From assembly GCF_004212215.1 (NCBI RefSeq), contig NZ_QVFV01000001.1, forward strand, positions 148,740 through 212,739: a stretch of DNA of 64,000 bases, read 5' to 3'. Position 1 is the first letter of the stretch; each line of letters begins with the position of its first letter. This document shows positions 35,583-53,824 of this stretch, piece after piece. Source of the stretch: Leptolyngbya iicbica LK (GTDB lineage: Bacteria > Cyanobacteriota > Cyanobacteriia > Phormidesmidales > Phormidesmidaceae). The notes under the pieces are model-generated. The model worked only from the letters and a program-made list of their open reading frames with translations, did no database searches and was not told the DNA's origin. The position numbers and the translations under genes were made by a program.

Positions 35583-36282
35583 GGCTATTTCTCGCTGCGA
35601 CAGTCTATTCAATAGTACCGGGCAAACCTGAGTTGTCTCTAAGGAGGTGGCCGATTACGGCACGGAGTAAGCTCATTGCGAAAGGGGCGGACCTCAGATC
35701 CGACTGGTGCACTCCTAGAACCGCATGTCGCCAACCCACTTAGATGGGAATTTGTGGGAATTTAATTGAGTGTGAACAGCCGTCCCGGCTGTTTCAGAGC
35801 CAGCAAGATGCTTGACCAACAAAACTTGAGTTCGCGAGCAATCCTGATTCCTGAGGCAGCGGCCTCGCCGGACAGCCCTGCTGCTGATATCAGTTCGGGA
35901 TAACAGCCATTACACATCTATATATATGCAGTCAAAATTAATCGATGCGATTTTCCTGAGTCATCACTCGTCCATATCAGCAGTCCAGTCCGGCTATTTT
36001 TGCCGATACTGGATCGTCGCTTTGCCATGGGCCTGAGATTGGGGTGTTGCAGTTTGCAGTTCGTAAAGTTCAGTCTTTACGACAGGATGAGCGAAAAAGT
36101 CTCTATCACCATTTTTTTACTGCGCGTTACTTAGAAACGCTGAAGTAACTGCTGTCGCAATGTTTGACGGTTTGTAACAGCTGCGAAGCGGGGCCGCGAT
36201 CGCTCTATCACTTCCTGATACCGTGAGTGCAGTCTATTGATTGAATAGATTTTATCCTTTTCCACGGTTTATCGAAATAACT
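35583..36282. other. Divergent regulatory region of gshA and acsF
   Basis: About 700 bases between the two divergent genes. It contains the minus-strand partial copy of the interspersed repeat (35755-35830). From about 35930 onward it is AT-rich and must hold the acsF promoter, but no confident -35/-10 pair stands out. GTAAAG/CTTTAC (36066-36081) forms a short hairpin. No gene is supported. Confidence 0.45.
35755..35830 (-). repeat. Interspersed repeat, partial copy
   Basis: The reverse complement of 35755-35830 aligns to the middle of the repeats at 47402 and 53420: CAAGTTTTGTTG, then CAAGCATCTTGCTGG, the ACAGCCG/CGGCTGT hairpin and the ACTCAATTAAATTCCC end. It is the most diverged of the four copies and lacks both outer parts. 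Confidence 0.75.
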
Positions 36283-37341
36283 ATGGTCAGTACCGTTTCT
36301 CCATCCCCCAGCGTTAAAACTGCGGTCGAAGAAAATCTACTCACCCCCCGGTTTTACACCACTGATTTTGACAAAGCAGCCCAAATGGATTTGTCAGCTG
36401 GCGAGGCCGACTTGCAAGCCATGGTGGCAGAAATGCGCGCGGACTATAACCGCTATCACTTTGTGCGTAATGAAGCCTTTGACCAGGCGTGGGATCACAT
36501 TCAAGGAGAAGAGCGCCAGGCCTTTATCGATTATTTAGAGCGCTCTTGCGTATCGGAATTTTCGGGCTTTTTGCTGTTCAAAGAACTGTCGCGCAAGCTG
36601 AAAGGTCGGAATCCCCTGTTGGCAGAAATCTTTCACCTGATGGCGCGGGACGAGGCGCGGCACGCGGGCTTTATCAACAAGGCGATGGCTGATTTCAATA
36701 TTTCCCTCGATCTGGCGAAGCTCACGAAGAATCGCACTTACACGTTCTTCCCCGTAGAGTGGGTCATCTATGCGGTCTACCTGTCAGAAAAAATCGGCTA
36801 TTGGCGCTACATCCTCATCTTCCATCACTTAGAGCAGCAGCCCGAAAACAAGTTCTACCCCCTCTTCAACTACTTTGAGAGCTGGTGTCAGGACGAAAAC
36901 CGCCACGGCGATATTTTTAAGGCACTGCTGCGATCGCAACCCCACATGTGGCAAGGCTGGAAAGCTCGGTTTTGGAGCCGCTTTTTCCTGCTGTCGGTCT
37001 TTGCCACACACTCGCTAACGGTGCATGAGCGCAGCAAATTTTACGAAATGCTCGGGCTGGACGCCACGGCCTTTGATGAGGAAGTCGTGCGACAGACTAA
37101 TTTGACGGCAGCACGGGCCTTTCCGGTGATGCTGAATGTCGATCATCCGGACTTCTTTAAGCGGCTGGATCGCTGTGTGGAGCGCAATGTAAAGCTGAAG
37201 GCGATCGCGGAAAGTCACCAGCCTCAGCCCCTCAAGTTCCTTCGCAAGTTACCCCACATTGCTGGGACGGCGGGCGACCTATTATGCCTATTTATGATGA
37301 AACCGATTGATACGGAATCCCTGCGCGGCCAAGTTTGTTAA
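36283..37341 (+). CDS. acsF: Mg-protoporphyrin IX monomethyl ester oxidative cyclase
   Basis: Membrane-associated di-iron enzyme that forms the fifth ring of chlorophyll, using oxygen to convert Mg-protoporphyrin monomethyl ester to divinyl protochlorophyllide. About 352 residues from the ATG at 36283. The two iron-binding motifs DEARH (123-127) and DENRH (204-208) are intact. The sequence is close to the usual cyanobacterial AcsF length. Cyanobacteria often carry two paralogs for high and low oxygen; which this is cannot be told. A 14-codon upstream extension to a TTG is possible but unlike the family. Confidence 0.96.
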   Translation: MVSTVSPSPSVKTAVEENLLTPRFYTTDFDKAAQMDLSAGEADLQAMVAEMRADYNRYHFVRNEAFDQAWDHIQGEERQAFIDYLERSCVSEFSGFLLFKELSRKLKGRNPLLAEIFHLMARDEARHAGFINKAMADFNISLDLAKLTKNRTYTFFPVEWVIYAVYLSEKIGYWRYILIFHHLEQQPENKFYPLFNYFESWCQDENRHGDIFKALLRSQPHMWQGWKARFWSRFFLLSVFATHSLTVHERSKFYEMLGLDATAFDEEVVRQTNLTAARAFPVMLNVDHPDFFKRLDRCVERNVKLKAIAESHQPQPLKFLRKLPHIAGTAGDLLCLFMMKPIDTESLRGQVC

Positions 37342-37381
37342 GAGAACCGCCTCCAAGTAACGTGCCCGGAGCAAGATTTCT

Positions 37382-37428
37382 GCAGGGGTTTGGCAATGCC
37401 CAGCCCCTGCAAGCGGGGACATTTTTTA
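37382..37428. repeat. GCAGGGG hairpin with downstream T-run
   Basis: GCAGGGG (37382-37388) pairs with CCCCTGC (37404-37410), with an inner GGCA/TGCC stem. A T-run lies at 37422-37427, about 11 bases beyond the stem. The core matches the element at 21014-21038. It may help end acsF transcription, but the distance is longer than in a standard terminator. Confidence 0.45.
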
Positions 37429-37552
37429 TTTTCAAGTAACTTCCTGAGCGCCTTTGCCTTGGGAATGCTCTCAACGGTTTCCCCATCGACTCAAAAGCCC
37501 CGGGACATTAGCGTTCAGGGCTCTTTTTGCGTGTCGCCATAGCCGGACAAGG

Positions 37553-40261
37553 CTAATTTTCGTTGACGGGGAAGCGGTTCATCCATTCGCAGGCTTGGCG
37601 GGCGTTGGTGCGCAGCGCGTCAGTAATGTGCGGCACGTGGGGAATTTGGGAGAGGAAGTCGAGGGTGCGGCGCAACACGCGCACAATGTCCCCTTCGTCC
37701 AAACTGGTGTGATCACAGAGTTCTGTCCAGTCGCTGCGATCGCTGCCCGCTTCGCGTTTTTCCTCAAAGCCTTCAGGAGCAGCCAGGTTAGCCTTTTCGC
37801 CAAACTCCACCCACCGTTCCACCAGGCCAATCAGGTCATATTCCAACCAGATGGGAAACATGACATCGTGGCGGCGCTGCTGCTGAAAGATTTCGCGACG
37901 GAGCTGGCGTAAGCCGCCGAGGGCGTTATCCACCGGGGTGGAATGATCGTAGTCGACCCATGTATCGGGGCGAGCACTTTCGGTGACCAGAGCCGCGCAA
38001 GCCGACGCGAGTTGAGCCGGAGTCAGGGCGTCAAATTCGCCGGAAGCGAGGGCCAATCCTAGCCATAACTCATTGTCGCCCCGAATGGCGGCGGCGGTTT
38101 CTCCCAGGGGGGTGGGTTGGTTATCGGCTAAACACCCGAACTCTTCTAGCACGGCCATGATGCTGACAAATTCTTGCCAATAGCGATCGCTCGACCGGGC
38201 CAGGGCCTGCTGGCGATCTCGCAGATCCGACTCTAAGCGCTGGATGCGGCGATATTGCTTGAGCGTCTTTTTGGGATTGCCATACTCGCGAGCGGGATGG
38301 GTGGCCATGCGCTCTTCCACCTCGTGGGTGCGGGCCAACTGCTCTTTCACCTCGGGGGCAATTTCTTCCAACGGCGGGGGTTGGGGCACCTGACAGGCGA
38401 TCGTGGCGGTATGGGCATCGCCGGGATAGTGAGCGCCGGGTTTGTGGGGCAACCCGGCGGGCGGTTCCAAATCATCGACCGCTGCGACGCGGGTATATTC
38501 CGCATGGAGGCCGACGACATCGCCCGTAGTGACCACAAACCACTGGTTGTCTTGGCTCAGGCAAATCAAATAGGGAAACTGACCGGAGCCCGGCACTTTG
38601 GTCACAATCACGGCGGGCAGCGGAGCCGATACCGGGACGTGCTTGCCCTTCAACGAAATCGTCGTTCCCGCGACGGCAAAGGCCAGCGCTGGCCCCATGT
38701 CACCCTTTAAAACTTCGGCGGCCTGTTGCTGCAAAATTTTCAGCAGGCGCTTTTCTTCCCGCAGGCGTTCCCGCAGATTTTCAAAGTCGGCAAACACTTC
38801 TTCATCAAAGGCTTCGACCTGGGCGCGCACATGCTCGATTTCGTCCTTGAGGTCGGCGATCGCTTGCTGCTGGGGCGCGAGCTGCACATTCGCCAAATAC
38901 TGCCCAAAGCTGCGCTCGACCAGGGTCCGGGCTTCTTCTAACGTGTGGCGCTGCAGCAGATTGAGCACCATGCCATAGCTGGGGGTGAATTGACTCACCA
39001 GGGGATCAGGGCCAACCGTGGCTAAATATGCCGCCTCGCGAGCGCCCTCAAACGGCGTTTCCACCGTGACGACGTGGCCCAGTTCGTCCATGCCCCGACG
39101 GCCAGCCCGCCCGGACATTTGCAAAAACTCCGACGCCATCAGCAAGCGATGACCACTGTCCGTCCGCTTGGACAAACTGGAAACCACCGTGGTGCGGGCG
39201 GGCATGTTGATCCCCGCCGCCAGCGTCTCAGTGGCAAAGACGACCTTGATCAATCCAGCTTGAAAGAGTTCTTCTACCAGCCCTTTCCAAGCGGGCAAAA
39301 TCCCGGCGTGGTGGGCGGCGATGCCCCGATACAGGGGCTCTACTTGTCCAGCGCGGCCCGCATCGGGATTCCACGCCATAAATTCGTCAATCTTGAGCTT
39401 GAGTTGGGCGGCTTCGGCGTCGTTGACTAACGAGACGTTGCCCATGGCCGTGACGGCGCGATCGCACCCCCGCCGACTAAAGATGAAGTAAATCGCCGGT
39501 AACATCTCCCGCTGATGCAGTTGCCCGACCACATAGGGAATCGCCAGCGCATCTTTCTTGCTGCGCTGTTTAGGGTTTTTGCGGCGCTGCTTTAACCGGG
39601 GATTAAGGCCCGACTGTTGAGCATTGAGAAGGGGAAATAAGCCCTTGCTATGGCAATAGTGAAAGTGCAGCGGCACGGGCCGAAAATCCGAATAGATTAG
39701 CTGGGTCGGGCCATGCACCTGACTCAGCCAGTCCGTCAGTTGACCGCCATTTTCGACCGTGGCCGACAGCGCCACGATTTGCAGCTCAGGCGGACAGTAA
39801 ATGATCGACTCTTCCCAAACGGTGCCCCGCTGGCGATCGTTCATGTAGTGACATTCGTCCAGCACGACGGCTTCCACATCCACCAACGAGGTGCCCACCT
39901 CGCCAATGCGGGTGCCGTAAAGCATGTTGCGAAATACTTCCGTCGTCATCACCACGATCGCCGCATCGCGGTTGATAGCAATATCCCCCGTGAGCAAGCC
40001 GACATTGTCAACGCCAAACTGTTCGCGAAAGTCCCGCAGTTTTTGATTGGAAAGCGCTTTGAGGGGCGTGGTGTAAAAGACTCGTTTGCCGCGATCGAGG
40101 GCGCGATGAATGGCATATTCGCCCACCAAGGTTTTACCGGAGCCGGTGGGGGCACACACCACGACGGATTGGCCTTCATCCAGCGCGCGAATAGCGTCTT
40201 TTTGAAAGGAATCAAGTTGAAACGGGAACAGCGTTGCCAGATTAAGCACTGGACTAGGCAC
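37553..40261 (-). CDS. Ski2/Mtr4-like DExH RNA helicase
   Basis: A 902-residue superfamily 2 helicase from a GTG start. Motif I APTGSGKT (37-44), motif II DECH (135-138), SAT-type motif III, and motif VI QMSGRAGRRG near 385 are all present. A long insert with coiled-coil character (about 455-505) and a C-terminal DSHCT domain (about 720-900) complete the Ski2/Mtr4 architecture. In plants the plastid homologue ISE2 acts on chloroplast RNA. A role in RNA turnover or ribosome maturation is likely but the substrate is unknown. It is convergent with acsF. Confidence 0.92.
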   Translation of the reverse strand: MPSPVLNLATLFPFQLDSFQKDAIRALDEGQSVVVCAPTGSGKTLVGEYAIHRALDRGKRVFYTTPLKALSNQKLRDFREQFGVDNVGLLTGDIAINRDAAIVVMTTEVFRNMLYGTRIGEVGTSLVDVEAVVLDECHYMNDRQRGTVWEESIIYCPPELQIVALSATVENGGQLTDWLSQVHGPTQLIYSDFRPVPLHFHYCHSKGLFPLLNAQQSGLNPRLKQRRKNPKQRSKKDALAIPYVVGQLHQREMLPAIYFIFSRRGCDRAVTAMGNVSLVNDAEAAQLKLKIDEFMAWNPDAGRAGQVEPLYRGIAAHHAGILPAWKGLVEELFQAGLIKVVFATETLAAGINMPARTTVVSSLSKRTDSGHRLLMASEFLQMSGRAGRRGMDELGHVVTVETPFEGAREAAYLATVGPDPLVSQFTPSYGMVLNLLQRHTLEEARTLVERSFGQYLANVQLAPQQQAIADLKDEIEHVRAQVEAFDEEVFADFENLRERLREEKRLLKILQQQAAEVLKGDMGPALAFAVAGTTISLKGKHVPVSAPLPAVIVTKVPGSGQFPYLICLSQDNQWFVVTTGDVVGLHAEYTRVAAVDDLEPPAGLPHKPGAHYPGDAHTATIACQVPQPPPLEEIAPEVKEQLARTHEVEERMATHPAREYGNPKKTLKQYRRIQRLESDLRDRQQALARSSDRYWQEFVSIMAVLEEFGCLADNQPTPLGETAAAIRGDNELWLGLALASGEFDALTPAQLASACAALVTESARPDTWVDYDHSTPVDNALGGLRQLRREIFQQQRRHDVMFPIWLEYDLIGLVERWVEFGEKANLAAPEGFEEKREAGSDRSDWTELCDHTSLDEGDIVRVLRRTLDFLSQIPHVPHITDALRTNARQACEWMNRFPVNEN

Positions 40262-40420
40262 ACATGACGAAATTACTGGGTTCTATTCTAGTGTGTCTTC
40301 GGAATAACGCCGATCAGGGGACGATTCCGGTCGGTTTTATCGATATCGGGGGACATCAGCCGAAGGAACCTTCCCCTTGGTCGCTGGCGATCGCGCCCCC
40401 TGTCATCATCAGGATTGGGC

Positions 40421-40945
40421 TTAATCGGGATACCAGAACATGCCTTTGATGCCCTCGGGATCAGGCATAAAGCCCAAATTTCGATAAAAGTCCACCACAT
40501 GCGGGTCAGCAAACAGCGTGACATTGCTAATGTCTTCGCTGCGGAGTTTTTTGATGAGCTGCTTCATCAACGTTTTGCCCAATCCCTTGCCTTGATAGTC
40601 AGGGTGCACCACCACATCCCAGATCGTCGCATTGAAGGCATGGTCAGAAGTCGCCCGCGAAAAGCCGATTAAGCGGCGGCGATTGCCCTGCACTTCCCAC
40701 ATAGTGACGACCAGAAAGCTGTGCTCGATCGCTTTCCGGACCTTCCGAATCGGCCGTCTGGCCCACCCCACGGCATCGCACAGTTCCTCTAGCTCATAGA
40801 GGTCAATGTCGCGTTCCGTACTAAAAACAATTTGTGCACCGCGATCTTGACTGGAGACCTCGGTCAGAGTTTTCGCTGATAAATCCTTGTCCCGGGGGGG
40901 CGTATCGGTCTCAGCACCAGTGAATAAACTTTTCCAGAAACCCAT
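40421..40945 (-). CDS. GNAT N-acetyltransferase, Ycf52-like
   Basis: A GNAT-fold acetyltransferase of 174 residues. The acetyl-CoA binding loop [10 protein letters not shown] and the preceding [10 protein letters not shown] strand are typical, and FYRNLGF follows near the C-terminus. The combination resembles the Ycf52/NSI group kept in some plastid genomes, which acetylates proteins linked to photosynthesis. The substrate here is inferred only from that resemblance. The N-terminal 35 residues are charged and look disordered. The gene is monocistronic, 159 bp upstream of the helicase in the same direction. Confidence 0.88.
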
Positions 40946-41220
40946 ACAGGTTTGGACAATAAATAATAAGAGACAGTGACAGTCTACTAGACTAATATAT
41001 CTGCTTAACCTTGTCTCTCACTGGTCACGAAACAACAAAGTTGCCCAATCCAGTCTGCCGGTTGCTCCTGCTGACACGGGAACCTTGAAAATAGTTCGGA
41101 CAGAACGGCAAACTGAACCCTAGGTGCAGGGATAAGATATGGACACGCCTGTGTGATTGGGCGATCAGGGTTTGGCTCGAAAGTTTGACTTGACCCAAGG
41201 TAATTGAGTGTTCCCCGGTT

Positions 41221-41946
41221 ATGGCTGCTGGTTTAAAACCATCCACAGTAGAGTTGCTGAAGCGATTTAATCGCGCTTTTCCGCAGTTCTATGAACAGTT
41301 TGTCAGCAGCGAAATTCAGCTTCAGAATTTACGCTTAGCGTATCAGCTCTACAAAACGCGCAAAGCAGTGATCGAACTCAAGCCCGAAGGCAACCGGAGC
41401 GCCCTGCATTTCGCTTACCGCAATCAATCGTTTTTGCTCAGCGATATTTTTGGGGTCCTGGCGGCCTACGGCTTAACCATCCACAACCTCAGCCTTTACG
41501 GGCAGATCTATCCGCCCATGCTGGTGTTTATCAAGCTGGTGGTATCGCGAGGGGGCAAAGCCTTACCGACCAAGACGGCAGATAACGTGTGTCGAGCTGT
41601 GCGAGAGGCATTAGCCGGGCATTTTGAAGTGGAAGAAATGCTAACGGTCGAGTTCAACCTGGATCAAGGGTTGGAGCAAGTCGAAACGGAATTTTATGTA
41701 GATCCGGTCTTTCATTTACCCGCGATCTTGATTGAGGCCGACAACCAGCCGGGGCTGTTTTACAAAGTGATGTACGCCATCTGGCAGGAAGATTTGCTGG
41801 TGGTGAATGCCAACTTGTTAGTGTGGCGGGGGCGGACCCGGTTGATTTTGTACTTACTGGGGCCGAATGAGAGTCTGATTCCTGAGTATCTGGGGCATAA
41901 GATTGCCGAAGGGATGCGATATCGCCTCTTGACGGGTACCAAGTGA
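41221..41946 (+). CDS. ACT-like domain protein, cyanobacterial
   Basis: A 241-residue cytoplasmic protein that I place only loosely. Two regions look like ACT/ACT-like regulatory folds: one around residues 75-115 (SDIFGVLAAYGLTIHNLSLYG) and another around 176-215 (ILIEADNQPGLFYKVMYAIW). The pattern recalls the paired ACT domains at the C-terminus of GlnD, without the uridylyltransferase or HD parts. ACT domains bind amino acids or related ligands, so a small-molecule sensor is a reasonable guess. There is no output domain. The region before it is a 275-bp divergent gap shared with the GNAT gene. Confidence 0.62.
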   Translation: MAAGLKPSTVELLKRFNRAFPQFYEQFVSSEIQLQNLRLAYQLYKTRKAVIELKPEGNRSALHFAYRNQSFLLSDIFGVLAAYGLTIHNLSLYGQIYPPMLVFIKLVVSRGGKALPTKTADNVCRAVREALAGHFEVEEMLTVEFNLDQGLEQVETEFYVDPVFHLPAILIEADNQPGLFYKVMYAIWQEDLLVVNANLLVWRGRTRLILYLLGPNESLIPEYLGHKIAEGMRYRLLTGTK

Positions 41947-42003
41947 TTCTGGCCGATCGCGATCGCGCCACCACTGGTTTCGCCGTCAGGATATGATGGA
42001 TTT

Positions 42004-42927
42004 ATGACTTATGCGAATGTCTTTGGTGTCCCCCACGCTTATCGCCTGACGGCACCGGCAAATCCGCCATCCGCGACGCTGGTATTTATTCATGGCTGGC
42101 TCTTGAGTCAATGCTATTGGCAACCGGTCATTGAGCAACTGGCGGCAGACTTTCAATGTTTAAGTTACGACCTTAGAGGCTTTGGGGCATCGAACCAGGC
42201 CGTGGACGAGCGATCGCACCCGACGCTGCCTTCTCGCCACTCGTCATCACCTCATCCCTACAGCCTCGAAGCCTATGCCGAAGACTTAGGCGAGTTACTC
42301 AACCAATTAGAGCTGACGTCTCCAGTTTGGTTGGTCGGGCACTCTTTGGGCGGCAGCATTGCCTTATGGGCGGCCAAGTTATTTCCTCAGCAAATTCAGG
42401 GCGTGATTTGTGTCAATGCGGGCGGCGGCGTGTATTTGCCCGATGAGTTTGCACAATTTCGTCAAGCGGGCAAACAAATTGTCCGGTGGCGCCCCGCTTG
42501 GTTGCGACATTTGCCCCTGATCAATTGGGCGTTTACTCGCATGATGGTGCAGCAACCGCTCATGCTGAACTGGGGGCAGCAGCGAGTGGCTGATTTGCTC
42601 GCGGCGCAGGCCACAGCCGCTACGGGCGTGCTGCTGGAATCGACGACCGAGGCTGAAGTGCATCGGTTGCCGCAAGTCGTTGCGAACCTGCAACAGCCTG
42701 CCTACTTTATTGCGGGGGCTGACGACACCGTGATGGAAGTCAAATACGTCAATCATTTGGCCAGCTTTCATCCCCTGTTTGAAAGCGTTGAGGGCAACGT
42801 CAAAATTTTGCCGGATTGTGGCCATATGGCGATGGTTGAACAACCCGAGGCCCTGACCGAGACCATTCAAAAGTTAGTTACGATCGCGCCAGTTTCTTCG
42901 CCAGTACGCGACTCTGCGCTGAAATAG
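42004..42927 (+). CDS. Alpha/beta hydrolase
   Basis: A 307-residue alpha/beta hydrolase fold protein. The oxyanion-hole region FIHGWLLS lies near residues 29-36. The nucleophile elbow GHSLGGS is near 115, and the expected acid and His are in GADDTVMEV and DCGHMAMVEQ near the C-terminus, so the catalytic triad appears complete. No signal peptide is visible. Substrate unknown: ester, epoxide, and C-C hydrolases all share these motifs. The gene sits alone between the ACT-like protein and tRNA-Gln. Confidence 0.85.
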   Translation: MTYANVFGVPHAYRLTAPANPPSATLVFIHGWLLSQCYWQPVIEQLAADFQCLSYDLRGFGASNQAVDERSHPTLPSRHSSSPHPYSLEAYAEDLGELLNQLELTSPVWLVGHSLGGSIALWAAKLFPQQIQGVICVNAGGGVYLPDEFAQFRQAGKQIVRWRPAWLRHLPLINWAFTRMMVQQPLMLNWGQQRVADLLAAQATAATGVLLESTTEAEVHRLPQVVANLQQPAYFIAGADDTVMEVKYVNHLASFHPLFESVEGNVKILPDCGHMAMVEQPEALTETIQKLVTIAPVSSPVRDSALK

Positions 42928-42985
42928 GCGATCCACTGATATCGCCTCGGTTTCACAAAAAAATTGGCGCGATCGCGAAAATTGC

Positions 42986-43016
42986 TTGACAGAGATGGGT
43001 TAAAAACTGCTAGATT
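42986..43016 (+). promoter_or_regulatory. Putative promoter of tRNA-Gln
   Basis: TTGACA at 42986-42991 and TAGATT at 43011-43016, with a 19-base spacer (CTAGAT at 18 bases is an alternative). It would start transcription about ten bases before the tRNA. It is one of few clear sigma-70-like pairs in the window. Confidence 0.5.
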
Positions 43017-43032
43017 ATTTAAGCCTACTCAA

Positions 43033-43104
43033 TGGGGTGTCGCCAAGTGGTAAGGCAGCGGGTTTTGGTCCCGCCATTCCTAGGTTCGAATCCTAGCACC
43101 CCAG
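43033..43104 (+). tRNA. tRNA-Gln(TTG)
   Basis: A 72-nt tRNA. Acceptor TGGGGTG/CACCCCA pairs fully, starting with the U-A first pair typical of tRNA-Gln. The anticodon stem GCGGG/CCCGC holds TTTTGGT with TTG at 43065-43067. CCA is not encoded. The fibrillin gene starts only 12 bases further. Confidence 0.95.
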
Positions 43105-43116
43105 TTTTGTTTGAAT

Positions 43117-43872: not shown

Positions 43873-44110
43873 ATCCTGGCCTGGTGCAAACGCGCCACTT
43901 TGCCGATACCGCAGACACGGGCTCCACAAAGCCAGCACCAGCCAATCCTCCCAATGCGCCTACCAAGGCTGCCCCCTTGCTCCCCCGCTCCCCTGTGGCT
44001 TCAAGGATCTGTAGCGCTCTTGAAGATAACCAGGATTAGGCGACTGTCACCTGAACGGAAGGCAGCGATATGGGAACGCTAGACCTACTATCACCATGGG
44101 TCAGGGTGTC

Positions 44111-45640: not shown

Positions 45641-45837
45641 GTCACGGCAAGCCCGCCTGAGCCTCGTTGGCTATGCCCTTGGTGAAATGCCTGTTGGTCC
45701 CGCCAATCGTCAGACCTGAAGCTTTGTGTCAGGCAGCGGTGTCTCTTCCCCCAAGCGCCTATGTTTTAAAAATGTCGGCCCGTCACGATCCACAGCGGTC
45801 ACCGACTGTCATCGGGTCATTGAGGGATGGAAATACT

Positions 45838-46818
45838 ATGGTCACGGTCTATTTCGGCACCAACCGCAACCTGAGTCCGAACGCTGAGGGGATTGATTTT
45901 GGCGATCGCTTTTCAGAAACCGACTTAGGGGACTTGCGGTTTGGTCAGGCGGAGGTGATTGACGGCACCCTCGATTCCAGCCGCATTCAACTGCTGCCGG
46001 ATACGAAAGCGGAAGGCTCGATGAAGCTGTTCCAAGATCTGCAACAGACAATGCGATCGCAGTCGCTCGATTCCATTCTGCTAATTCATGGCTTTAACGT
46101 GACGTTTAAGGGGGCTTTAGAAGGGGCCGCCAATTTCAAAACGCGGCTGGCGGCCTTGTCAGACAACCAATACACCCCTAACGTATTCGTGTTTTCCTGG
46201 CCCTCCAATGGCGAACTGTTTGATTACAAGGACGATCGCCACGACGCCCAGGCCTCTGGCTACGCCTTTGCCCGGGGATTGAAAAAGTTGACGGAGTTTT
46301 TGCGCGATCCCAGCTCTGGGGAACCCTGCCAGCAACGGGTCAACCTCGTGGCTCACAGCATGGGCAACTACGTCTTGCGCCACGCCCTACAAGAGACACA
46401 AAAGCTCAGCGGCAATCGTATCTTGCCGCGATTATTTGACAACATTATCTTGACCGCCGCCGACGAAGATAACGATGCGTTTGAGCACGATTACAAATTT
46501 GCGCGGCTGCCTGAGTTGGGCAAACAAGTGACCGTCTATTTCAACACCGAAGATCAGGCGCTCACGGTGAGTGATGTGACCAAGGGCAATCCTGATCGGT
46601 TAGGGCAAAGTGGACCGCGCTATCCCCGGCAACTGCCCTATAAGGTAGCTGTGGTGGACGTGAGTGACCTGGTCTCGATCTTGAGAGAGCACTCTTATCA
46701 CGTGACGAATGATCAGGTGGTGCGAGATGTCATCGCCGTCTTGCAAGGGCAAAGTCCTGACAACTTGACTGCGCGCCGTTACATTGAGCACGCCAACAAG
46801 TTCAAGTTGAGCCGATAG
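45838..46818 (+). CDS. DUF900-type alpha/beta hydrolase
   Basis: A 326-residue protein with the DUF900 alpha/beta hydrolase fold. The start MVTVYFGTNRNLSP is typical of this family. Visible motifs are the oxyanion strand ILLIHGFNVTFKG and the nucleophile elbow VAHSMGNYVLRHAL near residue 180, followed by the expected acid (TAADEDNDAF). A His in the C-terminal segment (HSYHVTN) probably completes the triad. The start at 45838 was chosen because the upstream 57 codons have no family-like sequence. No neighbours indicate the substrate. Confidence 0.82.
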   Translation: MVTVYFGTNRNLSPNAEGIDFGDRFSETDLGDLRFGQAEVIDGTLDSSRIQLLPDTKAEGSMKLFQDLQQTMRSQSLDSILLIHGFNVTFKGALEGAANFKTRLAALSDNQYTPNVFVFSWPSNGELFDYKDDRHDAQASGYAFARGLKKLTEFLRDPSSGEPCQQRVNLVAHSMGNYVLRHALQETQKLSGNRILPRLFDNIILTAADEDNDAFEHDYKFARLPELGKQVTVYFNTEDQALTVSDVTKGNPDRLGQSGPRYPRQLPYKVAVVDVSDLVSILREHSYHVTNDQVVRDVIAVLQGQSPDNLTARRYIEHANKFKLSR

Positions 46819-46953
46819 CGCCCCCATACAGGCCGGATGGATAGCCAAATACAACCGGGGAGCGGAGGGGTAACTGACGAGCCGAGATCGCGCTCCTAAA
46901 ATTGGCAGTTTGCCGCTGGGTCGATTGCCGCTTTGGCTTTGTAGTGAGCCTTC

Positions 46954-47076
46954 TCACAAACAAATCAAGAAGGCGATGGCCAAAAAAGCAAATGTTAAAA
47001 CAGCGGAGTCGCGGAATAAGTTTCTGACAAGGGGATACAGCGTCAGGGAATAAGGTAAAACCGAAGTGCGTTTCAT
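46954..47076 (-). CDS. Small membrane protein, 40 residues
   Basis: A 40-residue frame from an ATG preceded four bases upstream by AGGAGG within GGAGAGGAGG. That is the strongest ribosome binding site I see in the window. The N-terminal half is basic and polar (MKRTSVLPYS, VRNLFRDS). The C-terminal 16 residues are one hydrophobic helix (AVLTFAFLAIAFLICL). The composition fits a single-pass small membrane protein. It is not a high-light-inducible protein, because the ExxNxR motif is absent, and I do not recognise it as a known photosystem subunit. A palindrome lies 36 bases upstream. Convergent with the hydrolase gene ending at 46818. Confidence 0.55.
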   Translation of the reverse strand: MKRTSVLPYSLTLYPLVRNLFRDSAVLTFAFLAIAFLICL

Positions 47077-47080
47077 GATG

Positions 47081-47086
47081 CCTCCT
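47081..47086 (-). promoter_or_regulatory. Strong ribosome binding site of the 40-residue smORF
   Basis: AGGAGG on the minus strand, four bases before the ATG at 47076. It is the main support for translating this short frame. Confidence 0.7.
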
Positions 47087-47111
47087 CTCCAAATGCCGGG
47101 GGGCATGGAGT

Positions 47112-47132
47112 GATGCAACTTTGCGTTGCATC
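47112..47132. promoter_or_regulatory. Palindrome upstream of the smORF
   Basis: GATGCAAC (47112-47119) and GTTGCATC (47125-47132) form a perfect 8-bp inverted repeat around a 5-base centre. It lies 36 bases upstream of the smORF start on the minus strand. It could be an operator, or a hairpin in the leader RNA. Confidence 0.5.
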
Positions 47133-47401
47133 GGCCTACTCTCTGGTCAAGATTCACAGCCAACAGCGGTGAACAGCGGTTGCCGAAATAGCCCAATGGG
47201 TGGTTGTAGCGATGAGGCCAGATGCAAAGTTGATTGCTGACATCCCGATTTTAAGGGGCTGCCACCGTAGATTTACCTGCCGTGAAATAGTATTCACCAG
47301 GTGTCGCCAAACGAGACAAAACGTGGCAAAAGTTCATCTGCCTCTGACTTTTCTCATAAAGTCTTTGCGCAGTATGAATGCCTGGGCCATGAAGTGATCT
47401 A

Positions 47402-47605
47402 GCGTTGCGCAGATCGCTCCGTTCATTGATTTGACGGAAAAACGAGGGGCTTAGGTTAGGAAGCAGGATTTTTCAAATCCAACCCAAGTTTTGTTGAGCA
47501 AGCATCTTGCTGGCCCCAGGACAGCCGTCTCGGCTGTCCACACTTCGATTCAATGCCCATACTTTAAACTTTTGGGCTCTCGGCACCTGACTGCAGATTG
47601 CTATA
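47402..47605 (+). repeat. Interspersed repeat, full copy
   Basis: A 204-bp copy of a noncoding repeat also found at 53420-53627 (about 94 percent identical by eye, 4-bp indel), 51417-51534 (3' half) and 35755-35830 (minus strand, middle part). It contains GGACAGCCG/CGGCTGTCC around a three-base loop, a GCAAGC hairpin before it, and ends in TTGCTATA. No protein frame runs through it. With the smORF, its 5' elements and this repeat, the 816-bp gap 46819-47634 is explained except for 47133-47401. Confidence 0.9.
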
Positions 47606-47634
47606 CGCCCCATTACACAGTCTGGCCGCAACCC

Positions 47635-48501
47635 TTATTCCAGTTGTGATGGTTGATCATCGCGGCTCGTCACCCCCGCCGGTTGGCGCGGAGTCTCTAC
47701 CTGAGTGGCGGATTCGGAGGCATGCGTGGCCCGGTCGCCGGTAGTCGAGGTGTGATGACCGTTCGCATGAGCGGCAATAGCGGAGTCAGGGTCGGACTCA
47801 TCAGCGGCTGGAGTTTGTGCGGTTTGAGTTTTCTTAGAAAAGCCCCAGGCAAAGACGCCGGCGATTAGCAAAATCATCAGCCATTGCGGAGGCACCCAGC
47901 TGTCATTAGCAACGCGCAGCAGTAATCGCAAGCCTACAAACGCGACGGTGATAAACCCCGCATCTTCAAGATGTTCGTATTCGTCGAGCCAGCGGATGAA
48001 GAGCTGCGCCATAAAGCGCAAGGTGAGGATGCCGATGCTGCCCCCCAGCAACACCACCCAAACATCGCGGGAGAGGGCGATCGCAGTCGTCACACTATCT
48101 AGAGAAAACGCCAGATCCGTTAACGCAATCGTTGGAATCGCTTGCCAGACGGAGGCAAACCGAGGGCCATGGTGATGATGTTGCTCGTCTTCTGTCGACG
48201 TGAAATGCTGATAAACCAACCACAGTAGATAAGCGGCCCCCGCCACTTCAAATTGCCAAAATCGCAGCACCCAAGACGCGGTCAAGATCAGTAGCATCCG
48301 GAGTACGAATGCGGCCACCAGCCCAACATTCAACGCCCGCTGCTGTTGCTTTTCTGACTCTAGTCCCTGCGCGATCGCGGCCAGGGCGATCGCATTATCC
48401 GCCGACAACACGGCCTCCAGCGCAATCAACACCGGCAGCAGCAACAAGGTGTCAATGCCAAAATTAGTAGATATATCGAGTAAACGATCCAGCATTCTCA
48501 A
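47635..48501 (-). CDS. TerC family membrane exporter
   Basis: A seven-helix membrane protein of 288 residues in the TerC/YkoY family, which exports Mn2+ or related cations. The two family motifs are clear: EAVLSADNAIALA near residues 28-40 and DLAFSLDSVTTAIA near 130-143, each contributing acidic residues to the transport path. A His-rich loop (HHHHG near 107-111) may bind metal. The C-terminal 60 residues are polar and probably disordered. I checked the leader for the yybP-ykoY manganese riboswitch core, which often precedes this family, but did not find it. Confidence 0.9.
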   Translation of the reverse strand: MRMLDRLLDISTNFGIDTLLLLPVLIALEAVLSADNAIALAAIAQGLESEKQQQRALNVGLVAAFVLRMLLILTASWVLRFWQFEVAGAAYLLWLVYQHFTSTEDEQHHHHGPRFASVWQAIPTIALTDLAFSLDSVTTAIALSRDVWVVLLGGSIGILTLRFMAQLFIRWLDEYEHLEDAGFITVAFVGLRLLLRVANDSWVPPQWLMILLIAGVFAWGFSKKTQTAQTPAADESDPDSAIAAHANGHHTSTTGDRATHASESATQVETPRQPAGVTSRDDQPSQLE

Positions 48502-48935
48502 ATAATGATTTTAGAAATGGGTAAGCCTGAGACCAAAGTCGCTGCCGGAGCCATCGCAGACTGCGATCAGCTGCTCTCGCTGATGAGCGTTAGGGATCAA
48601 GTCTAGATGTGGCCTTTACCAGCATAAAACATCTACTGAACGGGCGTGGCAGATCATAGGGTATCAACCCTGGGCTAGTGACTTGATCGGTCAACCGCAA
48701 AAATCAGGAAGTTTAATTTTGGGGTCGAAGACTGTGGTGTGGGGACTGCCCGATCTGAAGCGGCTGCGCTATCAATGGAGATACTTGGGAAGGTGAGCCG
48801 CGATCGCGCGATCGGACAGATGCACGGCAGTCGTATTTGGACGGTAGGGACGGGGCTAGTAATTAGGAGCGCATGGGCATTGCCTGTGGTGGTCATCCTG
48901 TTCGGCAATGGCAATTGATGGGAAAGTCGGAGTTG
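48502..48935. other. Divergent region between terC and the kinase gene
   Basis: About 434 bases holding both promoters. A GCGATCAGCTGCTCTCGC stretch and AGCG/CGCT arms at 48570-48590 may fold, but no known riboswitch core is seen. A 79-codon minus-strand frame (48675-48914) looks like chance. Confidence 0.4.
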
Positions 48936-51059
48936 ATGACTGAGCAGTGGCTAAACGAACGATACAAGGTGCTGCATCCCTTGGGGCAGGGGGGCTTTGC
49001 CCAAACCTATCTGGCGGTTGATGAGCAGCGATCGCAGATGCGCTGCGTGATCAAGCACCTCATGCCAACCGACACCTCAACCCAGTTTTTGGCCACTGCC
49101 AGACGATTGTTTCAATCAGAAGTGCAAGTCATGCGACGGCTGGGGAAGCATCCGGCGATTCCCACGTTGCTAGATGCCTTTGAGGTCGAGGGCGAGTTTT
49201 ATTTGGTGCAGGAGTTTGTGGATGGCGAGGCGCTGAGCGAGCGGTTTCAGCAGCAGGGGCGCTTCAGTGAGGCCGAGGCCGTGCAGTTATTGACGGCGGT
49301 GTTGCAAATTTTGGTCTTCATTCACCAAGCACAGGTGGTGCATCGCGATATTAAGCCCAGCAACTTGATGCGCCGCCGCGCCGATGGGCAATACGTCTTG
49401 ATCGACTTTGGTGCGGTGAAGGAAATCACGACAGAATTAAGCACCACCCCCAGCGAAAAGTTCACCGTGAGTATTGGCACCCAGGGCTATGCTGCGCCCG
49501 AACAAATGGCGGGACGGCCTCGCTACAGCAGCGATCTGTATTCGTTGGGGATGACGGTGATTCGCGGGTTAACCGGGCGATCGCCGACGGAATTACCGGA
49601 AAATCCCGTCACGGGTGAACTGCAATGGACTGACAGCGCCCCCACCGTCCATGAAGGGTTAAGGGTGTTCTTAAATCGGTTGACCCACGTCTCGATTTAT
49701 CAACGTTATCCCTCGGCTGCCGCCGCTTTAGCGGATCTGGCCCATTATCAGACGTTAGCGATCCCCTCGGCAACGGCAATAGCGCCGACAGAATTGTCAC
49801 CATCGGACTCGCCGCCAGGGGGGTGGCAAGTGCAGGCGGGGCGACAGGCGATCGCGGCGGTGCTGATTGGGGCGATCGTTCTGCTGATTCGCCAACTGGG
49901 GGGTTGGGTACCCATCGAACTGTGGCTGCACGACCAGTGGGTGCAGCGCCAACCGCTGCCACCTGTGGACGATCGCCTGTTGGTGGTCGAAATCACCGAA
50001 GCCGATTTGATGCAGCTACAACAACCGACGCCGAGTGATGCCGTCTTAGCTGAACTCATCACCACGCTACAAACCTATGATCCCGCCGTGATTGGGCTGG
50101 ATTTGTATCGCGACATTCCCCAAGGTGACGGCCACGAACAACTGCTCGCGGCGCTAACTGCCGATAATGTGGTGGCGATTCGCCAGTTGGGCAGCAGTCG
50201 GTCAGAACAAATTCCCGCCCCGCGCGGGGTGCCCCCCGACCGAGTCGGCTTCAATGACTTTCCGGTGGATGCCGATGGGGTGGTGCGCCGCAGTCTCATT
50301 TACGCAACCGTGGATGATCGCCCCGACACCGAAATCTTTTATTCATTAGCGTTGCGGTTGTCCCTCGCCTACCTGCAGCCACGGGGCATTGTGCCTCGGG
50401 CCAGTGACGTGAATGCTGAGTATCTGGCGCTCAACGAGGCCACTTTTGTGCCACTCACCCCCAACTTTGGCGGCTATCGCCAGCTCGATGCCGCCGGTTA
50501 TCAGCTCTTGCTGCAATATCGGGGCGCGCGCGATACCATCCCCACAATCACCTTGGGAGAAATGTTGGATGGCCAGTTTCAGGCGGAGATGATTCGCGAT
50601 CGCGTCATCCTCATCGGAACGACAGCCGCTTCGGCCAAAGACTTCTTTCTGACCCCTTACAGTGCCACGGCTGAAACCGACTTTTTAATGTCTGGCGTCA
50701 TGCTCCACGCCCATGCAACGAGCCAAATTTTGTCGGCGGCGCTCGATGCGCAACCGCTGCCGTGGGCCGTACCAGAAGCGGTTGAGCTGTTGTGGATTAT
50801 GGTGGGCGCAACGGGCGGGGTAATATTGGGGCGTCAGGGTCAGCGTCTACGAGTCTTAGGATTAGGTTTAGGGGTCGGTGGTGTCGTGTTGCTTGCGGTA
50901 CCTGCAGCCGTCGCGACTCAAGCCGGCTGGCTACCCGTGGTGCCTGCGGTCATGACGTTTGCCGGGAGCGCGATCGCGGCAGCACTGATTCAAAACTACA
51001 CCGCAGATAAACGTTCGTCGGCTGCTTTGTGGGCTGACGTCGGGTTCCCAAGAGACTAA
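48936..51059 (+). CDS. Ser/Thr protein kinase with C-terminal CHASE2 domain
   Basis: A 707-residue membrane receptor kinase from the ATG at 48936; ATGs at 48873 and 48918 are alternatives. The cytoplasmic kinase domain (about 10-265) has the glycine loop LGQGGFAQTY, Lys in CVIKHLM, the catalytic loop HRDIKPSNLM and DFGAVKE, with APEQM after the activation segment, so it should be active. A membrane helix (about 310) leads to a CHASE2 domain outside the cytoplasm (about 330-600; DRLLVVEITEAD, VIGLDLYRD, VGFNDF), followed by three helices. Usually CHASE2 is N-terminal to the output, so this order is reversed. It is clearly related to the CHASE2 histidine kinase at 11537-13468. Confidence 0.9.
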   Translation: MTEQWLNERYKVLHPLGQGGFAQTYLAVDEQRSQMRCVIKHLMPTDTSTQFLATARRLFQSEVQVMRRLGKHPAIPTLLDAFEVEGEFYLVQEFVDGEALSERFQQQGRFSEAEAVQLLTAVLQILVFIHQAQVVHRDIKPSNLMRRRADGQYVLIDFGAVKEITTELSTTPSEKFTVSIGTQGYAAPEQMAGRPRYSSDLYSLGMTVIRGLTGRSPTELPENPVTGELQWTDSAPTVHEGLRVFLNRLTHVSIYQRYPSAAAALADLAHYQTLAIPSATAIAPTELSPSDSPPGGWQVQAGRQAIAAVLIGAIVLLIRQLGGWVPIELWLHDQWVQRQPLPPVDDRLLVVEITEADLMQLQQPTPSDAVLAELITTLQTYDPAVIGLDLYRDIPQGDGHEQLLAALTADNVVAIRQLGSSRSEQIPAPRGVPPDRVGFNDFPVDADGVVRRSLIYATVDDRPDTEIFYSLALRLSLAYLQPRGIVPRASDVNAEYLALNEATFVPLTPNFGGYRQLDAAGYQLLLQYRGARDTIPTITLGEMLDGQFQAEMIRDRVILIGTTAASAKDFFLTPYSATAETDFLMSGVMLHAHATSQILSAALDAQPLPWAVPEAVELLWIMVGATGGVILGRQGQRLRVLGLGLGVGGVVLLAVPAAVATQAGWLPVVPAVMTFAGSAIAAALIQNYTADKRSSAALWADVGFPRD

Positions 51060-51137
51060 TATTACTTGATATGTCTCACTCGGACGCAAGGCGAGTCTTG
51101 AGACAAGCTCGAAGTCAACCTATCCATGGGTCGCAAG

Positions 51138-51410
51138 ATGGCCTCCAAAATTTACGCCGTCGCTAATTTTGGCACAGTGCGCTTGTACGTCGGTGAGGTG
51201 AAACACCTCAAAACACGCTGGCCCAAAATGCTAGAGCAACTAGAGCAGGGCAAATTTCCAGAGCCGACCATTCAGGCTGAATGGGCCAAGCATCGAGGAG
51301 ATCGCCGCTTCACCTTTCACACGCCCCAAGAAATCAACACGGACCCGCAGCTGCGCGGTCGCAAGCTCTTTGCCAAAGATATTAACAAAGCCCGCCAACC
51401 GGAAGCCTGA
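51138..51410 (+). CDS. Small basic hypothetical protein
   Basis: A 90-residue basic protein from the second ATG (the first, at 51126, adds four residues). It contains beta-type segments (YAVANFGTVRLYVGEV) and a central amphipathic helix, with a C-terminal Lys/Arg-rich end. It could bind nucleic acid, but I do not recognise the family. Composition matches neighbouring genes. It lies 78 bp downstream of the kinase gene, in the same direction, and just before a repeat. Confidence 0.55.
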   Translation: MASKIYAVANFGTVRLYVGEVKHLKTRWPKMLEQLEQGKFPEPTIQAEWAKHRGDRRFTFHTPQEINTDPQLRGRKLFAKDINKARQPEA

Positions 51411-51416
51411 GACGAT

Positions 51417-51534
51417 GTTTTGTCGGGCAGGCATCTTGCCTGCTTCGGGACAGCCGAGACGGCTGTCCACACTTAGATTAAATTCCCATGCTTGAAACTT
51501 TTGGGCTCTCGGCACCTGACTGCGGATTGCTATA
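51417..51534 (+). repeat. Interspersed repeat, 3' half copy
   Basis: Matches the 3' half of the copies at 47402 and 53420, from GTTTTGT to TTGCTATA. It carries GGACAGCCG/CGGCTGTCC with the loop AGA, which is the reverse complement of the TCT loop in the full copies. In the first hairpin, GCAGGC/GCCTGC replaces GCAAGC/GCTTGC, a paired change that keeps the stem. Confidence 0.85.
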
Positions 51535-51679
51535 TTTTCAAGCAACTCCCTGACCTTGCGGCGATCGCTAACCAGACTGGCCTGCCAGGATACTCTCAGA
51601 TGTCTCTAAGATGAAGGTGTCTGATTGAGCGAGGCACGACCCTCGCCAATTCTGTTGCTCACGTAGTAGTCAATGGCTC

Positions 51680-52123
51680 ATGATGGAATCTACCCAAGCC
51701 CCCGTTTTATTTCATTTGGCTTTTCCCGTAGCCGATATTCCCACCACCAAATCGTTTTATGTCGACGGGCTGGGCTGCGAGGCCGGGCGTGAGTCCCCCA
51801 ATTCCATTATTCTCAATCTTTATAATCATCAGATTGTGGCCCACACCACCGATGATTTAACGCCCCAAAAGGGCATTTATCCCCGCCACTTTGGCCTGGT
51901 GTTTTTGGCCGAAGCAGACTTTGATGCATTACTCAACCGGGCTGTTGAGCAAGGGCTCAAACTGTTTCAACAGCCCAAACGTCGTTTTCCCGGTTCACCA
52001 TTAGAGCATCGCACCTTCTTTTTAGAAGATCCCTTCTACAACCTGCTGGAATTCAAGTATTACTGCAATCCCCAAGCCATCTTTGGCGAAGTAGCCCATA
52101 GTCAGGTGGGTGAGGCTCACTAA
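51680..52123 (+). CDS. VOC/glyoxalase-fold protein
   Basis: A 147-residue vicinal-oxygen-chelate fold protein. It opens LFHLAFPVADIPTTKSFYVDGLGCE, the usual first beta-alpha-beta unit with a possible metal ligand His. FFLEDPFYNLLEFKYY at the C-terminus contains the conserved Glu ligand. The second His/Glu pair is less clear, so enzymatic activity (glyoxalase, dioxygenase or resistance type) is uncertain. Several small cyanobacterial VOC proteins look like this. It starts from the first of two adjacent ATGs. Confidence 0.8.
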   Translation: MMESTQAPVLFHLAFPVADIPTTKSFYVDGLGCEAGRESPNSIILNLYNHQIVAHTTDDLTPQKGIYPRHFGLVFLAEADFDALLNRAVEQGLKLFQQPKRRFPGSPLEHRTFFLEDPFYNLLEFKYYCNPQAIFGEVAHSQVGEAH

Positions 52124-52331
52124 CGAGATCGCGCCACTGCCCTTTAGGATGAGTCCAGCAATGGCTCATCCGACCCGCTGCATTCCGGCTTATTGTCTAC
52201 AGGTAGTCGCAACGCTGCCCAAGTGGCGGGCGGAGGGGAACAATTCCCTGGCATCGAGCTTTACTGATCCGTTAACCGACCGTCGCTGGGGGATATTTCG
52301 GGGTGATTGTTGGTAAATCTGAACTTGGCTT

Positions 52332-53336
52332 ATGAGTGAGTCCCTGCAAACCGTCTTCGGTGCGCCTTTTCAAGCGGATGTGTTGATCGTCGATGACACC
52401 GTCGAAAACATTTTGCTGCTGGCAGAAATCTTGGAAACCAATGGCTACAGCGTTCGCAAAGCCGTGAATGCGGAGATGGCAAGTGCCGCAGTGCAGGCGC
52501 TGTTGCCCGACATTATTTTGCTGGATATCAATATGCCAGAGGTGGATGGCTACACCTTGTGTCAGCGGTTGAAAGCCGATCCCATCACGGCGGCCATTCC
52601 GGTGATTTTTCTCAGCGCGTTGAGTGACCCCTTCGATAAAGTCAGGGCGTTTGAAATCGGCGGCGTGGACTACATTACCAAGCCGTTTCATATGGCGGAG
52701 GTGTTGGTGCGGGTGCGGAGCCAAGTGCTGGCCCGACAGAGTCTCTTGCAGATGCAGCAGCTCGTTAAAGAACGCACTAAAGCTCTGGAAATTGCCAATA
52801 TGCAGCTTATGCAGGCGGCTCATCATGACAGTCTGACGGGGCTAGCCAATCGAGACCTGCTGATGGAGTCGCTGCAACGGTTGTTGGAAGGCATTCAAAC
52901 GGATCCGACTTATCAGTTTGCGGTCCTGTTTTGTGACTGCGATCGCTTCCAGCAGATCAATGCCGCCTATGGTCATTTTGTCGGTGACCAGTTGCTGATG
53001 CAGATTGCCGAACGACTCCGGCAGGTGGTAGATGACCAAGATGTCGTATCTCGATTTAGTGGCGATGAGTTTGTGGTGGTAATGTCTCAGGTAGACTCGG
53101 CCGCCCAAGCGATCGCCCAGGTCGAAACGCTCTTGGCCAAGCTGCAGCCGAGCTTTGAGTTAACTCAGACAGAGGTCTCCTTAGATCTGAGTATCGGGGT
53201 CGTTTTGAGTGACCCGACCCGACACCAAACGCCAGAGCAAATTTTGCACGACGCTGACCGCGCGATGTATCGCGCTAAAGCGAACCGTGATGAAGCGTAT
53301 AGCCTTTACTCAACCACGCCTGAAACCAAACGATAA
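52332..53336 (+). CDS. Response regulator with GGDEF domain
   Basis: A 334-residue REC-GGDEF protein, a likely diguanylate cyclase making c-di-GMP from GTP. The REC domain (about 15-135) has the acidic pair in VDDT, phospho-acceptor Asp in DIILLDINMPE and the Lys in YITKPF, so it should be phosphorylated by a partner kinase. A helix (about 140-165) links to a GGDEF domain (about 170-330) with HDSLTGLANRD, FCDCDRF and the active-site motif SGDEF. The first Gly is Ser, a variant also seen in active cyclases. The inhibitory site that is normally RxxD reads DxxD, so product inhibition is probably lost. No partner histidine kinase is adjacent. Confidence 0.9.
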   Translation: MSESLQTVFGAPFQADVLIVDDTVENILLLAEILETNGYSVRKAVNAEMASAAVQALLPDIILLDINMPEVDGYTLCQRLKADPITAAIPVIFLSALSDPFDKVRAFEIGGVDYITKPFHMAEVLVRVRSQVLARQSLLQMQQLVKERTKALEIANMQLMQAAHHDSLTGLANRDLLMESLQRLLEGIQTDPTYQFAVLFCDCDRFQQINAAYGHFVGDQLLMQIAERLRQVVDDQDVVSRFSGDEFVVVMSQVDSAAQAIAQVETLLAKLQPSFELTQTEVSLDLSIGVVLSDPTRHQTPEQILHDADRAMYRAKANRDEAYSLYSTTPETKR

Positions 53337-53824
53337 GCGGGGTTATCCCGTGGAGGGTGGTTGATCCAGGCTGGCGATCGCGGCGAGATCGCTAGCCGCC
53401 TCTTACTTGCCATTTCTATGCGTTGCGCAGATCGCTCCGTTCATTGATTTGATGGAAAAACGAGGGGATTAGGTTAAGAAGCAGGCTTTTTCAAATCAAT
53501 CCAACCCAAGTTTTGTTGAGCAAGCATCTTGCTTGCCCCAGGACAGCCGTCTCGGCTGTCCACACTTCGATTCAATGCCCATACTTTAAACTTTTGGGCT
53601 CTCGGCACCTGACTGCGAATTGCTATAGCAGCGATGCAACGCTATTCCCGCAATTTCTGAGAGCGTGGTTGAGCGCCGCACTTGTGCAGTGCACCGGAAG
53701 CACACGATGCAATTCTTGGTGATCGCCCCATTGCTTCGAAATCATCCGGTGAGCGACGCCGTCCTTTCCTATACTGGTAGGTTGTTAATGCTTCCGCTAT
53801 TGCAAGCGCACCCTGAGGCCAGTT
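53337..53824. other. Noncoding gap before gatA, mostly repeat
   Basis: About 488 bases. The central part is the interspersed repeat at 53420-53627. After it, 53628-53824 must carry the gatA promoter, but I see no convincing -35/-10 pair. No gene is supported. Confidence 0.5.
53420..53627 (+). repeat. Interspersed repeat, full copy
   Basis: A 208-bp copy nearly identical to 47402-47605, with a 4-bp insertion (AATC) in the poly-T/CAAATC region. It holds the GCAAGC/GCTTGC hairpin and GGACAGCCG/CGGCTGTCC with a TCT loop, and ends in TTGCTATA. No reading frame runs through it. Confidence 0.9.

Follow-up and report, generated by a model that had tools for sequence, protein, structure and literature searches.

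Four copies of an interspersed repeat with paired hairpins lie in a 64,000-nucleotide stretch of Leptolyngbya iicbica LK (contig NZ_QVFV01000001.1, forward-strand positions 148,740 to 212,739), referred to below as the window. An initial annotation of this stretch had listed the four copies, and all of them are present. It had also suggested that the repeat might be a non-autonomous mobile element; the analysis supports this and resolves the repeat into two nested elements, a two-hairpin core lying within an outer miniature inverted-repeat transposable element (MITE), together called the composite. The features, in window coordinates and with matches to the R1 model in brackets, are:

47398..47605, plus strand: full composite, an outer TA-target MITE with the two-hairpin core (C1:196137-196344, 240.3 bits, model 1-204)
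47456..47566, plus strand: core of this composite, flanking TTA triplets included (read from the sequence)
47498..47514, plus strand: its hairpin 1, GCAAGCA-TCT-TGCTGGC, with one pair broken
47519..47539, plus strand: its hairpin 2, GGACAGCCG-TCT-CGGCTGTCC, whose loop is a flipped form of the AGA carried by most of the family
53416..53627, plus strand: full composite (C1:202155-202366, 232.6 bits)
53474..53588, plus strand: core of this composite, flanking TTA triplets included (read from the sequence)
53520..53536, plus strand: its hairpin 1, GCAAGCA-TCT-TGCTTGC
53541..53561, plus strand: its hairpin 2, GGACAGCCG-TCT-CGGCTGTCC, with the loop flipped
51414..51534, plus strand: left-truncated composite with hairpins 1 and 2, the right part of the core and the right outer end (C1:200100-200273, 129.6 bits; left limit set by eye)
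51427..51443, plus strand: its hairpin 1, GCAGGCA-TCT-TGCCTGC
51448..51468, plus strand: its hairpin 2, GGACAGCCG-AGA-CGGCTGTCC
35735..35854, minus strand: stand-alone decayed core, no outer ends recognised (C1:184474-184593, minus strand, model 59-175 only)
35799..35816, minus strand: its hairpin 1
35775..35793, minus strand: its hairpin 2, with loop GGA in the element sense

The full copies had first been placed from 47402 and 53420, close to the model ends, which fall slightly outside (47398-47605 and 53416-53627). The half copy, first placed from 51417, is a composite lacking its left part. The copy at 35755 is inverted, as described, and is a stand-alone core rather than a partial copy of the full unit: the core hidden Markov model (HMM) covers it over positions 2-99, and the outer halves give no match. 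This HMM was kept at one round, as further iteration drew in many more matches, presumably reverse-strand matches to the palindromes. No open reading frame (ORF) of at least 100 aa runs through either full copy, whereas a 101-aa ORF (51240-51545, minus strand) crosses the left-truncated copy. The paired arm change from GCAAGC/GCTTGC to GCAGGC/GCCTGC was correctly read between the copies at 53420 and 51417, but the copy at 47402 reads GCAAGC/GCTGGC, with one pair broken; the A-T pair at that position occurs in 9 of 23 aligned composites, all of a young subfamily. The loop contrast, TCT in two copies and AGA in one, was also correct.

The copies at 47.4 and 53.4 kb are 95% identical. The flanks differ between copies, which thus do not come from one segmental duplication. 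A relative of the same genus (G004), probably Halomicronema sp. CCY15110 because its locus L217 reads the same as the named locus L242, is collinear with window positions 46700-54100, and its gaps near 47, 51 and 53 kb hold no elements. The alignment of these gaps covers the 47-, 51- and 53-kb sites and not the 35.8-kb site; the left flank is poorly placed in the 47.4-kb gap alignment, and the exact target bases there are therefore not claimed.

Two nested elements

The core is about 105 bp long and carries two hairpins between GGAAT...ATTCC ends. Where it stands alone, its order is (TTA or TAA) GGAATCAGGATTTTATAAAATCC...hairpin 1...hairpin 2...TTAATTTAATTCCAATTCC (TTA or TAA). Identical flanking triplets were found at 35 of 64 stand-alone cores (those of 79 with both ends readable by rule), compared with a mean of 16.3 and a maximum of 27 in 10,000 shuffles. 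Among the 36 cores with TTA or TAA on both sides, 17 had TAA/TAA, 16 had TTA/TTA, three had TAA/TTA and none had TTA/TAA.

The outer element also exists separately. A second short repeat of 94 bp, the outer ends of which resemble those of the composite, gave 24 genome matches, 14 of them near full length and representing empty outer MITEs. Removal of the core from the composite consensus leaves about 95 bp, which align end to end with the 94-bp MITE (70/95 identical) with a score of 112, the best of 500 shuffles reaching 43.5, and the insertion point of the core is the TTA in the middle of GGGGCTTAAGCCCC. The end-to-end fit and the position of the core at the central TTA indicate that the core inserted into an outer MITE and that the composite then spread. 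In one instance, composite L002 lies inside the left end of composite L024 with TA duplicated, which fixes the outer target duplication as TA in that case; this is the duplication expected of the IS630/Tc1-mariner group, seen here once, and TA is not specific to IS630.

The elements have the following attributes of MITEs: they are short (about 105 bp for the core and about 200 bp for the composite), multi-copy (at least 145 cores in the LK genome) and non-coding, with terminal inverted repeats (TIRs) that read GGAAT...ATTCC in the core and are imperfect TAGCRNTNCGCAG ends in the outer element, and with duplicated targets, TTA/TAA for the core and TA in the nested insertion.

Several arrangements at single loci were also observed. 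Three split 94-bp repeats contain inserts (L096, L105 and L267). At L096:1319-2007 and L105:1812-2049, empty outer MITEs are split by inserts that start with GTATCTGTTTAGCG, that in L096 also ending with its inverse, and these inserts are perhaps a further non-coding mobile repeat. At L137, L142 and L174, cores stand in tandem or are partly duplicated, some across runs of N, an arrangement that suggests local recombination or an assembly gap.

Family size, distribution and surroundings

The genome-wide covariance-model search proposed with the initial annotation found many copies. With a model built from 23 copies, there are at least 148 matches at E≤0.1 in the 5.72-Mb LK genome, a lower bound as 150 of 1,532 candidates were scored; a BLAST search with a 208-bp copy, in which 40 of 157 candidates were scored, gave at least 42 matches at E≤0.001. 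The R1 matches mainly span either the whole model (1-204) or the core alone (about 59-175). When outer ends are counted at E<0.05, 44 of 145 unique LK cores have both of them, two the left end alone, 11 the right end alone and 88 neither.

Matches were found in 10 of 58 relatives, the LK genome excluded. G004 has at least 34 and G011, which belongs to another genus, at least 31 (no more than 41 candidates scored in each), and the other eight have one or two each; the hairpin pair is present in Oscillatoriales cyanobacterium RM2_1_1 too. Outer ends were recognised at only two of 77 relative loci, both in G004, namely L227, a partial composite with the right outer end and hairpin 2, and L290, an empty outer element with both outer ends about 94 bases apart; full composites are therefore seen only in the LK genome. 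One 208-bp composite gave no match in the plasmid and phage collections.

Only two of 70 copies with flanks of at least 1 kb (47 from the LK genome and 23 from relatives) overlap an ORF of at least 120 aa. The other 68 lie between convergent (36), tandem (24) or divergent (8) genes. Judged by a rough ORF rule, convergent genes flank the copies more often (36/68) than they flank the copy-free gaps in the window (8/35). Copies between tandem genes are found equally often in the two orientations (12:12), which gives no hint of a strand-specific function.

Covariation of the hairpin arms

Changes in the arms were counted by parsimony on a FastTree tree of 196 of 225 copies, those with at least 75 aligned bases (29 dropped). 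Two-sided changes that keep the pair numbered 21, compared with a mean of 10.5 (sd 2.9) when the 3′ partners were permuted among pairs of the same type; only one of 2000 permutations reached 21. Covariation is thus above background, and shuffles on the 23 composites revealed an excess as well. One-sided breaks numbered 256 (106 to A-C, 75 to G-T and 75 to other mismatches). Against these stand 22 one-sided returns to pairing (17 from A-C, two from G-T and three from other mismatches), exceeded by the scaled returns of about 38 with mismatched partners (22, 11 and 5, respectively). Counted by copies, G-T and A-C stand at 73 and 77 in hairpin 1, and at 44 and 133 in hairpin 2; a single C-A pair that is common in G011 and G004 contributes 54 of the hairpin 2 A-C cells. 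Changes per column were 11.0 in stems, 17.0 in other columns and 18.5 in loops.

The initial annotation had taken compensatory change to mean that the folded form matters. The two-sided excess on which this was based is real; that folding matters is not established by it, given the many breaks, the few returns and the lack of a G-T preference. A family of structured small RNAs, or of elements borne on mRNA, with hairpins kept by selection on the folded RNA, would account for the excess of pair-preserving changes, for the lower variability of the stems, for the RNA fold of two composites with z about -4, and for the conservation of the hairpin pair across genera. For repetitive extragenic palindromes (REPs) in general, the available text of one study describes frequent GT pairing and suggested RNA roles (PMC3733652). 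Selection on RNA should, however, favour G-U, and the one-sided changes hold no such excess, which speaks against it. A DNA palindrome treats G-T and A-C mismatches alike. The preponderance of breaks over two-sided changes, the greater number of returns with mismatched partners, the symmetric orientation beside tandem genes and the replacement of loops by their own reverse complement (see below) also argue against an RNA family. A search of the whole window against Rfam at the gathering threshold returned four tRNAs only and no family over the copies, and the proposal of a family of small RNAs found no support there. We consider an RNA function improbable; the covariation exists, though it is modest, and template switching of DNA accounts for it better than an RNA function would.

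Loop inversion

The suspicion that a hairpin had been flipped proved well founded, as loops repeatedly turn into their own reverse complement. Loop changes that alter all three bases amount to 21 events, of which 14 are exact reversals: 10 of 14 in hairpin 2 (eight AGA to TCT, and two GGA to TCC in the lineage with GGA loops), and four of seven in hairpin 1 (TCT to AGA). The sole differences between the cores of L139 and L141 are a flipped loop and one end base. In G000 (the LK genome), G004 and G011, with copies carrying other loops left out, flipped loops were commoner in stems of at least 9 bp (17 of 89) than in shorter ones (11 of 251; Fisher p 6e-5; copies not independent).

In the available portions of published work, template switching between inverted repeats is stated to make their arms alike and to invert the spacer, the latter in yeast only where the arms exceed 9 bp (PMC8604942), and loop inversions are reported in rRNA, bacteria included (PMC8794818). 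Template switching predicts both the matching of arms and the flipping of loops, so that both are explicable without RNA function. Errors of DNA copying, rather than a need for folded RNA, are probably what keeps the arms of the hairpins matched and turns their loops round; template switching would be the process that left these two footprints.

Selection at the DNA level was also considered, in which the palindromes serve as single-stranded hairpins or protein sites for transposition, or for a host protein, and selection among the copies that move would keep their arms matched, on both strands alike. It is consistent with a mismatch pattern that has no strand preference, with hairpin 2 columns being among the least changed of the element, and with the survival of the two-hairpin module across genera, sometimes with other ends or no recognisable ones. 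By itself, such selection leaves the exact reversal of loops and its link with stem length unexplained, and we judge it unlikely.

Search for a transposase partner

The search for a partner was confined to DDE_Tnp_1 (30 of 69 matches, in three genomes), DDE_3, DDE_Tnp_4 and Y1_Tnp, other transposase families lying outside it. DDE_Tnp_4 (PF13359) is absent from the LK genome, and the IS5-sized G011 elements that were examined have GAGGGTGT ends, not GGAAT. Composite L279:1035-1234 (G000:C5 near 168.7 kb) has a DDE_Tnp_1 match about 270 bp away.

Two candidate autonomous elements were rejected. L267, in which outer ends flank a transposase left and right, was taken for an autonomous outer element and is really an insertion sequence (IS) of the IS4 family in the centre of an empty outer MITE. 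This IS (L267:978-2560, G000:C2 near 1191.3 kb) encodes a 471-aa transposase and sits at GGCTTAAGCC, in the palindromic centre of the 94-bp MITE, with a 10-bp duplication. L270, a candidate autonomous core, is really another IS4-family IS inside hairpin 1. Related IS4-family elements with ATARGCGTCAAGTTA ends occupy the identical hairpin 1 point (GGCATCTTGCC) in two species, at L270:824-2349 (G000:C1 near 285 kb) and L284:1116-1190 (G004:C306). The point is shared at different loci and in opposite orientation, which suggests that this IS may target the palindrome.

Origin and spread of the composite

The repeat is best described as a non-coding MITE-within-MITE transposon of a Halomicronema-like cyanobacterium, the palindromes of which evolve largely by replication template switching; we assign this reading a probability of about 80%. 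The inner element of about 105 bp inserts at TTA or TAA and duplicates those 3 bp. One core landed in the central TTA of an outer element of about 95 bp (TAGC...GCTA, TA duplication), and the composite was then amplified as a unit via its outer ends, moved in trans, we infer, by IS transposases of the host. The pair of palindromes within the core has the arrangement of a head-to-head REP dimer and would be rewritten by template switching between their arms. Such switching may copy one arm onto the other, giving apparent covariation, and may also turn the loop round.

Several points weigh against this account. The tree behind the event counts is based on about 100 columns, and the copies are not independent. 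The two-sided excess, taken with the slower stems, makes selection on the palindromes possible, and the available text of the rRNA study regards it as less clear what part template switching plays in maintaining stems (PMC8794818). The TA duplication of the outer element comes from a single nested case. The hairpin pair persists in other genera, partly without recognisable ends. As for transposases, none of the DDE_Tnp_1 loci covered (8/8 matches in the LK genome, 9/9 in G004 and 13/52 in G011) has matching ends; six DDE_3 loci of the LK genome have neither an outer end at E≤1 nor matching ends; and at L279 no outer end was found beyond the DDE_Tnp_1 match.

A broader interpretation is put forward tentatively, namely that the two-hairpin module may be a DNA signal in itself that several cyanobacterial genera share and that can ride on different short transposons, its arms and loops rewritten by template switching, with the RNA-like covariation being mutational. 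If so, the repeat family would keep a natural record of template switching at bacterial hairpins. The internal control, the comparison of G-T with A-C and the exact reversal of loops, points to an origin in DNA for what looks like RNA covariation in a bacterial repeat, and this bears on any inference of structured RNAs that relies on compensatory changes. The genome also holds the two parent elements next to the nested product that they formed.

Comparison with known systems

IS5-type and PIF-Harbinger elements duplicate a 3-bp TTA/TAA target and have TIRs that start with GG. The core resembles them in its TWA duplication (TTA/TAA) and its GG-initial TIR, and differs in that no transposase with GGAAT ends was found among the loci examined. 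Nezha is named as a cyanobacterial MITE in the available text of two studies (PMC3733652, PMC10969869). Compared by description, the present elements share with Nezha-type bacterial MITEs their short length, lack of coding capacity, bounding TIRs, many intergenic copies and target duplications; unlike these, two MITEs of different target types are nested and amplified as one.

The loop flips resemble the inversions at yeast inverted repeats (PMC8604942) and rRNA hairpins (PMC8794818), so far as the available text describes them, in the exact inversion of a short spacer, and the yeast case also in that arms are homogenised and that inversion goes with long arms, in yeast exclusively those over 9 bp. 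Unlike both, they are spread over the many copies of a single dispersed repeat in a bacterium, and some are found in shorter stems.

Published REPs, as described in the available part of one study, have stems mostly of 6-9 bp, short loops and degenerate GTAG tails (GTGG in one species), and form head-to-head dimers; many GTAG-15 dimers of Anabaena variabilis sit within long palindromes with TATAGGAnT...AnTCCTATA ends (PMC3733652). The core likewise carries an outward-tailed pair, with stems of 7-9 bp, loops of 3 nt and the tails outside. The tail beside hairpin 1 is GTCG in 58, GTTG in 27 and GTAG in none of 131 LK copies. In G011, 29 of 32 copies have GTGG there, and three of 14 copies from other genera have GTAG. 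Y1_Tnp genes are present in G000, G004 and G011. The core might be viewed as a REP dimer, akin to a bacterial interspersed mosaic element (BIME), spread by a REP-associated tyrosine transposase (RAYT, of the Y1 type) rather than by a DDE transposase. The stems, loops and outside tails, the GTGG and GTAG tails of other genomes, the enclosure of the A. variabilis dimers by GGAnT...AnTCC palindromes and the Y1_Tnp genes are consistent with such an origin. Cores were found near none of 13 Y1_Tnp loci in the three genomes, surrounding DNA included, and this, the lack of GTAG beside hairpin 1 in LK copies and the clear 3-bp target duplications make spread by a RAYT highly improbable.

For the MITE-within-MITE itself, the closest likeness, by description and not by sequence, is with the GTAG-15 dimers of A. 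variabilis, which are also cyanobacterial and present in many copies, with two outward-tailed hairpins and GGAnT...AnTCC ends beside TA-rich bases. The loops of those dimers are 9-15 bp, compared with 3 in the core, the LK tail is GTCG or GTTG instead of GTAG, and the core is nested again in a second MITE. A literature search, largely outside subscription journals, found, among the titles listed, none on nested bacterial MITEs or on this repeat. From their layout and tails, the two hairpins may go back to a REP dimer that was carried within an element bounded by TIRs. The composite is a new nested MITE, the inner layout of which has a published parallel in Anabaena variabilis, as described in the available part of that study (PMC3733652).

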